Source: Bacteroidales bacterium (GTDB lineage: Bacteria; Bacteroidota; Bacteroidia; Bacteroidales; Paludibacteraceae). Taken from it: DNA of 64,000 nt. Positions 13,253-62,327 of the stretch are shown piece by piece. Position 1 is the stretch's first letter. Each line of letters starts with the position of its first letter. A program made the position numbers and the translations under genes. The notes under the pieces are model-generated. The model worked only from the letters and a program-made list of their open reading frames with translations, ran no database searches and was not told the origin of the DNA. Where the stretch lies: assembly GCA_015654525.1 (NCBI GenBank), contig JAATGT010000183.1, forward strand, positions 1 to 64,000, given 5' to 3'.

Positions 13253-14518
13253 ATGTTCCTACAAAAATCCACAAAACCGGGCATCATCAAACAGCTCTTT
13301 ATTGCATCGTTCGCAATTTGCTTTAGCGGAAATATGTACGCCGCACAGACTCCTAAAGTTCAACCAATCCTTACCAATGTACAAGCAGTAACTGAAGATT
13401 CGGTCTACACTTTTGCCGAAAAGATGCCGGAATTTCCGGGAGGCGAAAAGGCTTTAATCGAATTTTTGAGAAAAACAATTGTTTTTCCGGACGAAGCCAT
13501 GAAAAATAATGAACACGGAAAAGTATATGTTCAGTTTGTTGTCCGGAAAACCGGAAAAGCAGCCGATGCCAAAATAATAAGAAGCGTCTCCACCAGTCTG
13601 GACAATGAAGCATTGCGCGTTATAGGGTTGCTGCCCGACTGGACACCGGGAGAGCAAAACGGCGAAAAAGTATCGGTTACGCGGATTATTCCTATTTCAT
13701 TTCAGCCCGCAGCACCCAAAGACACGGTTGCTGAATGGGAGCCCAACGAAAGAACCGTGGTGCTGATTGACGGTGTGAAAATGCCTGAAAGTTTCAATAT
13801 TGGTATTATCAATCTCGATAAAATGGCTAGTGCCACGGTGCTTAAACCATTTCCCGATAAAGAGAAATCAACTCTGATGAAGAAATATGGTAAACAAGCT
13901 GCTGACGGTGTGATTTTGCTCACCAGTAAAAAAGAAGGAATACAATATCTCTTAGCCGATTCAACAGCCAACAACGCCACTTGTAACGATGCTGCCATTA
14001 TGCCATCATTTCCGGGAGGCGAAGCCAGCCTTACAGCTTATATAGCTGATAGTATTCAATATCCTTTTGTGGCAAAACGATTAAACACACAGGGTAAAGT
14101 CATCGTACAATTTTTGGTCGACAAAACCGGTAAAATAAATGATGCCAAGGTAGTACGTGGTACAGATTATTTTCTGGATAAAGAAGCGCTGCGCGTTATA
14201 GGTACCATGCCCAACTGGACTCCGGCTACCAAGTGTAACGAAAAAGTAAATGCCTACGTGAGCCTGCCTGTTGTATTTAAACTCGATGTTCCGGCCAAAG
14301 AAAAAGCCTGGGAACGCGATGCTAAAACCATTATATTGCTTAACGGAGAGCGGTTACCTACCACATTTAATCTGGATTGGTTGAACTATGCCGGGCTGTC
14401 GGGCTATCAGGTACTACCACCCACAACAAAAGAAGTTACCAAAAAACTAACATCGCAATATGGCAAAGATGCTGCCCACGGGGTGATATTGATTAGCACT
14501 ACCAGCAACAAGAAATAA
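13253..14518 (+). CDS. Exported protein with two TonB C-terminal domains
   Basis: The 421 residues begin with a basic stretch and a signal-like segment (LFIATFAICF-type hydrophobic core, then GNMYAAQ). Two TonB-C domains follow, one at about 48-145 (FAEKMPEFPGGEKAL to VSVTRIIPISFQP) and one at about 245-345 (MPSFPGGEASL to NAYVSLPVVFKLD). Each is followed by a short unit with VVLIDGVKMP or IILLNGERLP that ends in YGK.AA.GVILL/IS, resembling the plug-like DGV...GVILITTK unit. No membrane protease domain is present. It resembles the TonB parts of the M56 gene upstream and may be a standalone relative; its role is unknown. Confidence 0.85.
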   Translation: MFLQKSTKPGIIKQLFIASFAICFSGNMYAAQTPKVQPILTNVQAVTEDSVYTFAEKMPEFPGGEKALIEFLRKTIVFPDEAMKNNEHGKVYVQFVVRKTGKAADAKIIRSVSTSLDNEALRVIGLLPDWTPGEQNGEKVSVTRIIPISFQPAAPKDTVAEWEPNERTVVLIDGVKMPESFNIGIINLDKMASATVLKPFPDKEKSTLMKKYGKQAADGVILLTSKKEGIQYLLADSTANNATCNDAAIMPSFPGGEASLTAYIADSIQYPFVAKRLNTQGKVIVQFLVDKTGKINDAKVVRGTDYFLDKEALRVIGTMPNWTPATKCNEKVNAYVSLPVVFKLDVPAKEKAWERDAKTIILLNGERLPTTFNLDWLNYAGLSGYQVLPPTTKEVTKKLTSQYGKDAAHGVILISTTSNKK

Positions 14519-14570: not shown

Positions 14571-14688
14571 TTATTTATACGCGCAAGCGGTTTAAATCAC
14601 TGTACACTCCCTGATAATTCATTTGCTTTGCTCCATTACATTCTTTTTGCCGGCTTTAAAGAAACAAAGCATTTTTACTCTCCAAACA

Positions 14689-14936
14689 AATACATATATT
14701 TAAATACAATAAGTTTATAATATCTGTATTTCATCACTTATTAAAATACAATTGTAAATTTATTCATATAATAATACAATCATAGTTACACAATATGATT
14801 CTAATATAAGTAAAAGTACATAAATAAAGAATCATTCTACTTTTAAAATATGTAGTATTACATAAAACAAAAAACAATCATATTTTATAAAATGTATTAT
14901 TTCGGTCATTAGAATACAACTATTTCATCTTATTTG
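14689..14936. repeat. AT-rich region with 7/21-nt phased TACA motifs upstream of the DUF6261-like gene
   Basis: In this stretch seven of the eight TACA words (14691, 14705, 14747, 14775, 14817, 14859, 14915) are separated by exact multiples of 14 bases; the exception is at 14787. Five of the seven are AATACA. Written in 7-mers the region repeats AATACAA, AAAACAA and similar words. It resembles, more weakly, the clear 21-nt array at 31768-32250. The rest of the 460-base gap (14519-14978) holds the terminator and a TATATTTG box at 14937-14944. No ORF is evident. Confidence 0.5.
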
Positions 14937-14978
14937 TATATTTGTGCACAATAAAATCAACTTTAAAAATACTATCCG

Positions 14979-15695
14979 ATGAAAATAGCCCTGTCGCGCC
15001 TAAGCGTAAGCAGTCTATCCTGGTTAGCTTATCAGTTAATCTTAGAGTCTAAAACAGAAACCGCTTACCCCTTTCTCAAGGATCATCCTTTACTCACAAC
15101 TCTCCAAACAACCTATAACCGTCATCAGATTGTATACGGAAAACAAAGCTACAGTGGAAAAGGAAAATTAGTAGCCAAAGCCAATTTGGTGCAAAACGAT
15201 GCCTTCAACGGAATGAAATTTTGTATTTACGGGCTGACTAAAGTCGGTGGAAATAGCTTACAAGCCGATGCAAAGGATTTGTACCACCTGTTTAAAGATG
15301 CAGGAATAAGCCTGAGCCGACATAAATACTGGACAAAAACAGCTGAGCTTAGTAAACTTATTCAAAAACTGGACAAACCTGAAAACAAGGAAAAGATAGA
15401 ACGCGTGCATCTGACTGAAGTGTTTGAAATGTTAAAAACTGCTTTTCTCGATTTCGACAGATTGTCGTTGGAACAAGCAGATGCGAATTCAAAACTCAGA
15501 CTTATGGGTACAGCCAGCGGCTTGCGAAAAGAGTTGGAAAATGCCATCCATAATTACCTGGCACTAGCAACGGCAATGAAAGAATTTGACGGTTGGAAAA
15601 AACTCTGTGGCACCTTCAACGAACTTGTAAAAAGTATCAGAGACACAAACCAAAAGTCCGACAAAAATACAACAGAACAAAACCCAGAATCCTGA
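14979..15695 (+). CDS. DUF6261-like protein of unknown function
   Basis: The 238-residue protein is mostly helical with no signal peptide and no membrane segment. Its layout (MKIALSRLSVSSLSWLAYQL start, central NDAFNGMKFCIYGL, later LYHLFKDAG, helical C-terminus and polar tail) resembles the Bacteroidota DUF6261 family, whose role is unknown. The assignment is from memory of the family and is moderate. A TATATTTG box lies 35 bases upstream, and an AT-rich 7/21-nt phased region precedes that. The architecture parallels the FN3 gene at 31101-31730 with its 21-nt array. Confidence 0.7.
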   Translation: MKIALSRLSVSSLSWLAYQLILESKTETAYPFLKDHPLLTTLQTTYNRHQIVYGKQSYSGKGKLVAKANLVQNDAFNGMKFCIYGLTKVGGNSLQADAKDLYHLFKDAGISLSRHKYWTKTAELSKLIQKLDKPENKEKIERVHLTEVFEMLKTAFLDFDRLSLEQADANSKLRLMGTASGLRKELENAIHNYLALATAMKEFDGWKKLCGTFNELVKSIRDTNQKSDKNTTEQNPES

Positions 15696-16280: not shown

Positions 16281-18188
16281 ATGCAAAAATACCTTTCCAT
16301 ACTCAAACAATACTGGGGCTACGATCAGTTCCGGCCCTTGCAAGGTGATATTATCCAAAGTATTGCTTCGGGAAAAGACACATTGGGACTTATGCCTACC
16401 GGGGGTGGAAAGTCCCTGACTTTTCAGGTGCCTTCCATGGCCATGGAAGGCATTTGTGTGGTGGTTACTCCACTTATTGCCCTGATGAAAGATCAGGTGG
16501 AAAACCTGAAAAAGCGCGGAATCACTGCTGCCGCCATTTTCTCTGGAATGTCACACAACGAGATATTGATGACTCTCGACAATGCCGTGTTCGAAGCCTA
16601 CAAATTTCTGTATGTATCGCCCGAACGGTTGGCGACTCCGGTTTTTATGGAGAAAATAAAACAGGCTAAGGTCTGCATGATAGCCGTGGACGAATCTCAT
16701 TGCATCTCACAATGGGGGTATGATTTCCGTCCATCGTATTTACGCATTGCCAATATTAGGGAATTACTTCCCGACGTTCCGGTGCTGGCGCTTACAGCCA
16801 CTGCCACACCCGAAGTGGTAAACGACATTCAAACACAACTGCACTTCAGGGAACCAAATTTGTTTCAAAAAAGCTTTTTCCGTTCCAACCTAGCTTACGT
16901 GGTGCGAACGGTGGAAAACAAAGACGAGAATCTGCTGAAAATACTAAACAGCGTTACGGGTACATCAGTGGTGTATGTACGCAACCGGAAACGCACCAAA
17001 GAGATTTCCGATTTTCTGAATCTGAACGGCATTTCGGCCGAGAACTTCCATGCCGGACTGAAAAACGAAACAAAAGATGCCAAACAGGGGCGTTGGAAAT
17101 CGGGCGAAACACGGGTAATTGTTTCTACCAATGCCTTCGGGATGGGGATAGATAAAGCTGAAGTGCGTACCGTAGTGCACATGGATTTGCCCGATTCGTT
17201 GGAAGCTTACTTTCAGGAAGCGGGACGTGCTGGACGCGATGAAAAGAAAGCCTATGCCGTGTTGCTCTACAACAATGGTGATGCTGTAAAAATGCGTAAG
17301 CGTGTGACCGACTCCTTTCCCGGAAAAGAAATGGTGGTAAAGGTATACGAGGCATTGGGAAACTACCTGCAAATGGGCGTAGGCTCGGGACTCGACAAAG
17401 TGTTTGCTTTCGACATCGGCGATTTTTGTACAAAGTTTAAACTTCCAATCCTTATAGCTTACAACAGTCTGAAGATACTGCAACAAGCCGGATACATTGA
17501 ACTCACCGACGAACAGGACAGTTCGTCGCGCTTGCTTTTTACCGTTGGGAAAGATGATTTATATAAACTAAAGCAAACACCTGAACAGGAGCGGCTGATA
17601 CATATCCTGCTTCGCTCCTACACCGGTCTATTTACCGATCTGGCTTCCATCAGCGAAGATATAATAGCTAAACGACTGGAGTGGACACGCGACAAAGTGT
17701 ACGAGCAACTAATAGAACTGGCAAAGGAACGCATCATTCAGTTTATCCCCCGAAAAAAAACGCCTTATCTTACTTTCGTCCGCGAACGAGAAGCCACCGA
17801 ACGGGTTGTACTGGGTAAAGAGGCCTATGACGATAGACGCGAACGATACATTGCACGAGTAAAAAGTGTGTTGGATTATGCACAGGAAGAAAATATATGC
17901 CGAAACCAGATACTGCTTTCGTACTTCGGCGAAAAAGACAGCAAACCTTGTGGTAAATGTGACATCTGCCTGAAAAAGAAAGAAACACAAGTGAGCGATG
18001 AAGATTTTGAAGCTATCCGACTGCTTATTCGACAGGAACTGCATGCAGAGGCACTAACCGTAAATGCGTTGATCAAAAAGATCCCGTTCAAAGAACCGAA
18101 AGCATTACAGGTTATCCGCTTTATGATAGATAACAACCAGATAGTGGAAAATGAATTGATGAAACTCGGTTTGAAAAAAGAAAGTTAG
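16281..18188 (+). CDS. recQ: ATP-dependent DNA helicase RecQ
   Basis: RecQ unwinds DNA 3' to 5' in recombination and fork repair. The 635-residue protein shows the Walker A motif TGGGKS at residues 40-45, DESHCISQWGYDFRPSY for motif II and the aromatic loop, and FGMGIDKAEVRTVVHMDLPDSLEAYFQEAGRAGRD for motifs V-VI. The RQC zinc site is in ENICRNQ..YFGEKDSKPCGKCDIC. The C-terminus after the RQC region is short, and I see no convincing HRDC domain, as in other short Bacteroidota RecQ paralogues. A second recQ elsewhere in the genome is likely. Confidence 0.95.
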   Translation: MQKYLSILKQYWGYDQFRPLQGDIIQSIASGKDTLGLMPTGGGKSLTFQVPSMAMEGICVVVTPLIALMKDQVENLKKRGITAAAIFSGMSHNEILMTLDNAVFEAYKFLYVSPERLATPVFMEKIKQAKVCMIAVDESHCISQWGYDFRPSYLRIANIRELLPDVPVLALTATATPEVVNDIQTQLHFREPNLFQKSFFRSNLAYVVRTVENKDENLLKILNSVTGTSVVYVRNRKRTKEISDFLNLNGISAENFHAGLKNETKDAKQGRWKSGETRVIVSTNAFGMGIDKAEVRTVVHMDLPDSLEAYFQEAGRAGRDEKKAYAVLLYNNGDAVKMRKRVTDSFPGKEMVVKVYEALGNYLQMGVGSGLDKVFAFDIGDFCTKFKLPILIAYNSLKILQQAGYIELTDEQDSSSRLLFTVGKDDLYKLKQTPEQERLIHILLRSYTGLFTDLASISEDIIAKRLEWTRDKVYEQLIELAKERIIQFIPRKKTPYLTFVREREATERVVLGKEAYDDRRERYIARVKSVLDYAQEENICRNQILLSYFGEKDSKPCGKCDICLKKKETQVSDEDFEAIRLLIRQELHAEALTVNALIKKIPFKEPKALQVIRFMIDNNQIVENELMKLGLKKES

Positions 18189-31100: not shown

Positions 31101-31730
31101 TCACAACACATAACTTTTTATCACATCACTCCAGATACGGGCAGGGTCAGTACGCGCTGCGGCTATGCGAAAGCAGTATTCCTGTCCGCTAATCAGCCCT
31201 TCAATAAGAATTTTTCGTCGGGAACTGGTCACTTGTATCCATACACTATCCGGTCTCTGCGGAGACAGGCAATATTCTACAACATAAAACAGCGCACGTT
31301 TTACAACGTCGCAACTAATATACAGACTCCCTTTGGAATCGCCCACTTGCAGCTTCACGTTGGTGGGTCTTTCCAGCGGCCCTACACGCGAAGCCCTGAA
31401 ATGCACCGAAAAACCGGCACTATACACTATAGCTGCATTCCCTTTACAAGCTTGCTGGACATAGATGGACATATTTTGCAGACTATCCTCCAATTTCTTG
31501 CGCGCGTCTTTTTTGACTATCGTATCTACCCTCGATCTGTCCTGCAAATTGCTCACACACACTTCAAAGTCAGCAACATTGATCTTTAAGTCGGCAATTA
31601 AATCTGCCGCATTCGGAAAATTCGGATTATCAACCATCCTTTCCAATACCGAAGAAGCAAATAACGCCAGCTCAAGATCCTTGTATTTGGCCGGAGCAAA
31701 ATTCTTTGACACAATAACTTTTCTTATCAT
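31101..31730 (-). CDS. Small protein with helical N-terminus and fibronectin type III domain
   Basis: The 209-residue protein has no signal peptide. Residues 1-110 are mostly helical with a conserved-looking stretch RMVDNPNFPNAADLIADLK and VYSAGFSVH. Residues 118-209 look like a fibronectin type III domain (GPLERPTNVKLQVGDSKGSLYISCDVV, YVVEYCLSP, W.QV, YCFRIAAA, IWSDVIKSYVL). I have seen this type as a Bacteroidota hypothetical family but know no function. It begins just downstream, in its own direction, of the 21-nt array. No promoter box was found in the 38 bases between. Confidence 0.8.
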   Translation of the reverse strand: MIRKVIVSKNFAPAKYKDLELALFASSVLERMVDNPNFPNAADLIADLKINVADFEVCVSNLQDRSRVDTIVKKDARKKLEDSLQNMSIYVQQACKGNAAIVYSAGFSVHFRASRVGPLERPTNVKLQVGDSKGSLYISCDVVKRALFYVVEYCLSPQRPDSVWIQVTSSRRKILIEGLISGQEYCFRIAAARTDPARIWSDVIKSYVL

Positions 31731-31767
31731 ACCAGTCCTATTTTAAGATTAAACCCTTCGATATAAA

Positions 31768-32250
31768 ATTGATTCGTAAAACTAGACAAACAACGGATTG
31801 CTGACACAAAACAGGGCAATCGTTTAGTTGAATACCCCTTTTGCCTGTTCTATTCCAGCATTATTTGAAACAAACCGGCTCTTATTGATCTAAAACAGGG
31901 CATTATACTAAAATAATACGTCGTTCATGTACCATTCCGGTCTGTTAGTGTGAAACAATACGCAATCTTTCATATACAACAGCATATTATTCATAAATAA
32001 TAAATTATTTTTCATTATAAACAGAATATTTCTTATGAATAACAGAATAGAATGGATATAAAATAGCCTATTATTTTGAGAGAATAAAGCAAAAATTGAA
32101 AAGTATGCTTCAGTGGTTGAAGCTAATACGGCAGAATAAACAGAAAAGGGTTGTATAGTGGAATGAAACAAAAGATTAGAAACAAAAGAGAAAGTATTAC
32201 AGATACAAAACACAACCGAAAGGGAAAGAAAAAAGCCGTTTTAATCAACT
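31768..32250. repeat. Array of about 23 degenerate units with an exact 21-nt period
   Basis: From 31768 the DNA can be cut into 21-base units without a single insertion or deletion. Of the 21 units starting at 31789-32209, fifteen begin with AA[CT]A, five as AACAG and four as AATAC. The remaining 16 bases of each unit vary, although units from 31957 to 32061 share TATT.TT and CAT.AAT words. Read in the direction of the adjacent FN3 gene, units end in CTGTT or GTATT after 16 variable bases. It is not a CRISPR array: the constant part is only about five bases. From 32251 to 32517 I see no gene or further phasing. Confidence 0.8.
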
Positions 32251-32517
32251 AAATACGTAGAAGAATATAATTTTGATCTATAAAAATGCGCTTTACATCT
32301 CTTAAAAATTGAATGGATACCGCTTCTTTGCCATTTTCTCCGAATGTTTCTACATGTCAACGGACAAACACTTAACATCACCATTTTAGTTGCCAGAAAT
32401 AAATAACTTGTTTTTATACAAAATCGTTGTTGGCAATTTTTTGCAGAAGAAGTTATCAATATCCGGTAACCCCTTGTGGACAGGTCAAAAATTCGCGCTT
32501 CAGAGTACGCTATTTTC

Positions 32518-62044: not shown

Positions 62045-62058
62045 ATAGCCATTTGAAG

Positions 62059-62213
62059 CTTCTGAAATTTTCAAAAGCTTTGCGACGACTGTTTTTGCCT
62101 TTCTGAAAATTTCAAAAGCTTCCCAACGACCGTTTTGGTCCTTCTGAAATTTTCAGAAGCTTCGCGACGACTGTTTTAGTGTTTCTGAAAATTTCAAAAA
62201 CACATACCCTGCG
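62059..62213. repeat. Tandem 41-nt repeat after sufD
   Basis: TTCTG starts at 62060, 62101, 62142 and 62183, exactly 41 bases apart. Each unit has TTCTGAAA.TTTTCA.AAGCTT, an imperfect palindrome, followed by CGACGACTGTTTT-type sequence. The last unit is partial. It fills most of the 283-base gap 62045-62327 and shows no ORF. Confidence 0.75.
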
Positions 62214-62327
62214 ATATTCAGTTTTCTCTATTTAGACAAAGCTTGTTTTCCGATAAAATTGCAGAAGAAAATATTTAAACAGTTCGGAAAACAGCAAAGA
62301 ATCTAATTTATACTGCTATTTTTAAGA

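Follow-up and report, generated by a model that had tools for sequence, protein, structure and literature searches.

The 64,000-nucleotide stretch of DNA analyzed here (the window) carries TACA words that recur in phase just upstream of a gene of the DUF6261 family. This raises the questions of the real period of this repeat, of whether it is tied to the downstream gene and of what such an array could do.

The array of the window and its site

A previous reading, made from the sequence only, had proposed that these motifs are phased at 7/21 nt. The eight TACA words on which it relied were recovered, seven of them in a single phase modulo 14, and this phasing is extreme (equalled by none of 1000 dinucleotide shuffles when all 4-mers and periods from 5 to 30 were scanned). 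TGTA is phased too (14725, 14753, 14851, 14893 and 14935 share one phase modulo 14). However, the proposed period was incorrect: identity is raised neither at lag 7 nor at lag 21 (z = -1.6 for both), the true period being 42 nt, with an identity of 0.558 at lag 42 (z = 6.0-6.4) and of 0.50 at lag 84 (z = 3.9). The impression of a 7/21-nt period arose because TACA sits on the arms of two palindromes, 14 bases apart: in the main palindrome it forms the right arm (phase 33 modulo 42), in a minor one the left arm (phase 5).

Only one copy of the core palindrome is exact (TGTAGTATTACA, 14851-14862), the remaining copies of the window being degenerate. The minor dyad, weaker than the core, lies midway between cores, with centres exactly 21 bp apart, and the two best dyad axes of the 42-nt consensus (20.5 and 41.5) show the same distance of exactly 21 bp. 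An upstream 41/42-bp period (lag 42, z of about 6), a palindromic core and a second dyad at the half-period, which characterize the arrays associated with DUF6261 genes, are all found here. The window copy is thus a real but weak and degenerate member of a strong array class.

Table 1. Features of the window related to the arrays and to their surroundings.
Feature	Position	Strand	Remarks
Degenerate array, seven 42-bp units	14683..14946	+	lag-42 z about 6
Core palindrome TGTA-N4-TACA	14683, 14725, 14767, 14809, 14851, 14893, 14935	+	recurs each 42 bp
Minor dyad TACAATTGTA	14747..14756	+	centre 14751.5; neighbouring core centre 14730.5
TATATTTG, matching the Bacteroidota -7 element TAnnTTTG	14937..14944	+	consensus match only; overlaps last core
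DUF6261 gene (PF19775), 238 aa, divergent member	14979..15695	+	profile match 54.7 bits, cut-off 27
TonB_C-domain gene, left flank	13253..14518	+	in G002 and G037, adjoins RecQ with DUF6261 gene absent
RecQ-like gene, right flank of site	16281..18188	+	
21/42-bp array upstream of Fn3-like gene 31101-31730(-)	31731..32300	-	geometry shared, protein family unrelated
Solo 41-bp array flanked by sufD and NUDIX gene, with TTCTGAAAATTTCAGAA-like core	62046..62225	.	without adjoining DUF6261 gene

The gene order TonB_C gene, array, DUF6261 and RecQ is common to the window and to genome G032 (locus L221), whose DUF6261 protein is 55% identical to that of the window and whose array has a lag-42 z of 3.0. 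In genomes G002 and G037, both flanking genes are found together and DUF6261 is absent. The TonB_C-RecQ intergenic stretch of G002 (L252) contains short inverted repeats of its own, which are based on GGCAATTTC.../...GAAATTGC.

Arrays and cores across the DUF6261 family

The claim that a phased array is tied to the DUF6261-like gene held for the link itself and failed for the 7/21-nt period. Extending the comparison to other DUF6261 genes (PF19775), as the sequence-only reading had suggested, revealed upstream arrays in two phyla: in a set of genes from Paludibacter, other Bacteroidota and Fibrobacterota, an array was found upstream of 129 out of 148 and downstream of only 12 out of 156 (expanded set). 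Among the first 76 genes, 93% have an upstream array, with best lags mostly of 41, 42 or 82-84, and nothing similar was found in their gene bodies or downstream. Arrays comprise 3-11 units (median 6), their units being spaced by 41 (330 times), 42 (279), 43 (30) or 40 (11) nt, and end at a median of 83 nt before the start codon. Outside Paludibacter, the association between array and gene is kept both in further Bacteroidota and in Candidatus Fibrimonas (Fibrobacterota). The source genome has 21 DUF6261 matches, and Paludibacter genomes have 0-21 each (31 positive genomes out of 48). In a thin sample of the phylum, DUF6261 was detected in three of 198 Bacteroidota genomes; among five loci from two further carriers in this sample, four show a lag of 41/42 (or 83) and the fifth hardly does.

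The consensuses of the arrays contain inverted repeats (mean score 7.4 vs 5.2 in shuffles, z = 28), whose stem sequences vary by locus (for example TTGCCG...CGGCAA, CCTGC...GCAGG or TCGTACTAGTACGA). Within arrays, conservation is of 0.85-0.93 for the core and of about 0.60-0.75 for the spacer. When the centre was picked from the outer pairs only, inner pairs located 0.5-2 bases from it showed a complementarity of 0.39-0.77, compared to 0.25-0.28 in shuffles, and most of these complementary inner pairs would be impossible in an RNA hairpin; the central pairs of this impossible kind show a complementarity of 0.39-0.67. This central complementarity therefore favours double-stranded DNA sites over RNA hairpins, and indicates that the units are probably sites of the former kind. 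A second dyad at the half-period, although weaker, is found family-wide (0.374 vs 0.270), and TTCnnA constitutes a loose and weak half-site frame common to the family. An excess of G-U pairs, considered as a sign of RNA hairpins, was not found (140 G-U vs 131 A-C stem mismatches; 47 vs 31 in a second count, not significant). The -7 element TAnnTTTG is enriched in the 200 bp preceding the arrays (53 vs 9 expected from shuffles; 21 vs 1 when combined with a -33 element) and less enriched after them (21 vs 7.5). Therefore, judging from these consensus matches, the array is probably located in a transcribed leader in most loci.

For one member of the DUF6261 family, AlphaFold2 gave an all-helical model (mean pLDDT 93); the window protein gave a weaker model, also all-helical (pLDDT 83). 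The predicted fold includes no recognisable DNA-binding fold. Foldseek comparisons to PDB and viral structures gave no match with E <0.001, nothing usable came from PADLOC, PHROG and PDB sequence searches, and hhalign detected no homology with other array-associated helical proteins. R166 and R182 are the sole residues that hardly vary; therefore, these proteins are unlikely to be enzymes.

Cores can differ between almost identical paralogues. L066 and L067, from one genome, encode proteins sharing 98% identity, whose six amino acid differences all lie in residues 172-192. Their arrays have orthologous spacers, which can be aligned unit by unit, but no full unit has the same 13-bp core at both loci; the most distal unit of L066 is intermediate. 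The duplicated stretch begins at a terminator-like hairpin and ends with the stop codon, and 17 of the 28 nucleotide differences are located in codons 170-195, a pattern that resembles a recombination tract. The terminator-like hairpin, common to both loci and upstream of their arrays, constitutes the 5' boundary of this module. In the clade of this pair, R183 is associated with a G at core position -6 (six out of seven vs none out of three, Fisher p = 0.03). The paralogues L071 and L072 of genome G000 (93% identical) behave differently: their cores differ but residues 172-192 do not, the protein differences being located at other residues, several of them near the N terminus. Immediately ahead of the L072 array, one unit retains the L071-type core. 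The core CGTACnnGTACG is shared by L071, L075 and L079 of G000, whose proteins are only 40-50% identical, but not by L072.

At a larger scale, orthologues from different genomes with 75-85% identity largely keep their core (0.70), and core similarity follows protein identity with a rho of 0.40, calculated on non-independent pairs. Column-wise covariation between protein and core was not significant family-wide; mutual-information signals were scattered over the whole protein and were read as clade effects. Changes at residues 171-190 were not enriched in the core-changed pairs, where only residues 1-12 show an enrichment, and a weak one (uncorrected p = 0.014). The idea of an insulation, by which cores of paralogues would avoid each other within a genome, was unsupported by label shuffling, three G000 arrays even sharing the same core. 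Since covariation was not significant and residues 171-190 were not enriched, recognition of the cognate core by DUF6261 is considered here as likely but unproven.

Possible roles of the arrays

The geometry of the arrays, their palindromy, their upstream location, their locus-specific cores and the replacement of cores between near-identical paralogues lead us to favour, with slightly less than even confidence, a helically phased multi-site operator that DUF6261 would bind cooperatively, with autoregulation and switches of specificity. The palindromic double-stranded sites, spaced by 41-42 bp, i.e., four turns, would all face the same side of the helix, with the weaker dyads midway, i.e., at two turns, and in most cases the array would separate the promoter from the start codon of DUF6261. 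The all-helical protein, which bears no sign of an enzyme, would assemble cooperatively on its own array as an oligomer with two-fold symmetry, and the resulting nucleoprotein filament over the leader would enable it to control its own gene. Core and protein would shift specificity together, and the array-gene unit would duplicate and insert as a stand-alone module. Several observations count against such an operator: arrays devoid of DUF6261 or preceding an unrelated gene family, the lack of a recognisable DNA-binding fold, and cores that differ between L071 and L072 without any change in residues 172-192. The non-significant covariation, the scattered mutual-information signals, the lack of enrichment at residues 171-190 and the recombination-like tract of L066/L067 also weigh against it. 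More tentatively, DUF6261 may represent an undescribed class of DNA-recognition modules, with a new all-helical DNA-binding fold whose target would be an array of phased palindromes located in the leader of its gene and whose specificity would be switched by exchange of a short protein segment and rewriting of every core.

Alternatively, the array could be transcribed as a leader of tandem hairpins and DUF6261 could bind this RNA, as in type III toxin-antitoxin systems or TIGR-Tas ribonucleoproteins. Promoter-like elements located mostly upstream of the array, which make its transcription probable, palindromes able to fold as hairpins and the presence of one array per gene all agree with this proposal. 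However, G-U and A-C mismatches are about equally frequent in the stems, the positions that would form the loop are complementary, the period is locked to four turns of the helix, a terminator separates array and gene in only one of 129 loci and an Rfam covariance-model search of the window and of five loci gave no match, so that an RNA-binding role appears unlikely. In type III toxin-antitoxin systems (ToxIN, CptIN, TenpIN), a tandem repeat array directly precedes one protein gene, both diversify together, and a Rho-independent terminator between array and toxin gene serves as a criterion (PMC5086642). DUF6261 arrays also directly precede a single protein gene and diversify with the protein, but 128 of 129 lack this terminator, their units look like double-stranded DNA palindromes and the proteins match no endoribonuclease of the ToxN, CptN or TenpN type (Pfam, PADLOC, PDB fold). 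TIGR-Tas systems associate arrays of alternating elements (36-nt unit, guide spacers) with one gene encoding a Nop-domain protein (PMC12045711). As in these systems, the elements of DUF6261 arrays are constant within a locus, differ between loci and adjoin one gene; nevertheless, the protein has no Nop domain (Pfam, Foldseek), the unit is of 41-42, the spacers are related between units (about 0.6-0.75) and orthologous between paralogues, and central complementarity indicates DNA.

The geometry extends beyond DUF6261, and this constitutes the main support for another explanation, in which one host protein or process reading phased dyads or hairpin shape would build or use the arrays, DUF6261 and Fn3-like genes being targets or passengers. 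The two families, which have no detectable homology, share the same 21/42 geometry, solo arrays exist and core sequences are diverse. The Fn3-like family combines a helical N terminus with an Fn3-like domain and has 21/42-bp arrays upstream of about 25 of 28 Paludibacter loci and downstream of none. The array near 32 kb in the window belongs to this family, and the likeness that had been noted between its units and those preceding the DUF6261 gene was not significant, either for the pair that had been quoted (p = 0.07) or for the best-matching 21-mers of both arrays (p = 0.9). A census covering 800 kb of the complete genome G002 counted, away from any DUF6261 gene, 13-14 intergenic arrays with a period of 21, 41 or 42, without a similar excess at other periods. 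Several further short helical ORFs of G002 are preceded by intergenic arrays of 21 or 41 bp (L111-L150; for example 1332148-1332616 and 1353676-1354181). However, the arrays of the Fn3-like family have weaker palindromes and another motif frame, and TTCnnA was not seen in them; therefore, each protein family has its own motif. In addition, core similarity follows protein identity, and DUF6261 is found in few lineages (three of 198 Bacteroidota genomes) although the array occurs in two phyla. A shared host factor is thus a doubtful explanation.

Array and gene could also form a transposable cassette, the array being its end or its target site. The gene-free sites of G002 and G037 compared to the occupied ones of the window and G032, the duplication of L066/L067 from hairpin to stop codon, the 0-21 copies per genome and the solo arrays would fit such an element. 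It is nonetheless improbable, since a catalytic motif is absent (only R166 and R182 being nearly invariant) and an array lies downstream of the gene in only 12 of 156 cases. Finally, although within-array spacers are related by duplication and copy number varies, it is highly improbable that the repeats are functionless products of slippage, given the 41/42 period locked across unrelated sequences in two phyla, the palindromic core conserved within arrays while spacers drift, the upstream rather than downstream location (129/148 vs 12/156) and the lack of an excess of palindromic repeats of other periods in the 800-kb census of G002.

Novelty and significance

In contrast with CRISPR arrays, which have identical repeats and unrelated spacers, the units of DUF6261 arrays are similar over their whole length. 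Plasmid iterons and centromere arrays of the ParR/TubR type are helically phased repeats preceding the gene of the protein that binds them. DUF6261 repeats are likewise helically phased and precede the gene of a candidate binder, but they are chromosomal, with up to 21 loci per genome and a separate core at each of them. Neither a partner ATPase nor a replication gene was seen, homology to known Rep or ParR was not found, and the protein fold had no match. The intergenic heptamer repeats TAACTGA, found upstream of many genes, some of them in Bacteroidetes, consist of one fixed heptamer, without the palindromes or the link to a gene family that DUF6261 arrays display (PMC4679880). A search of open-access literature, without preprints and most subscription journals, returned no description of such arrays and a single, unrelated paper naming DUF6261. 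As far as these searches reach, the array class associated with DUF6261 is therefore undescribed.

The presence of a distinct palindrome for each gene copy suggests an undescribed and fast-changing protein-DNA recognition module in two phyla. A Pfam family of unknown function gains a constant partner that can be tested, namely a DNA array whose helical geometry is fixed. The coordinated rewriting of all cores of one array is an evolutionary puzzle by itself. If the proteins bind their arrays, these loci would provide more than 100 natural combinations of a protein with its matching site, among them two proteins that are 98% identical but have different sites, which would be enough to derive a recognition code for a new fold.
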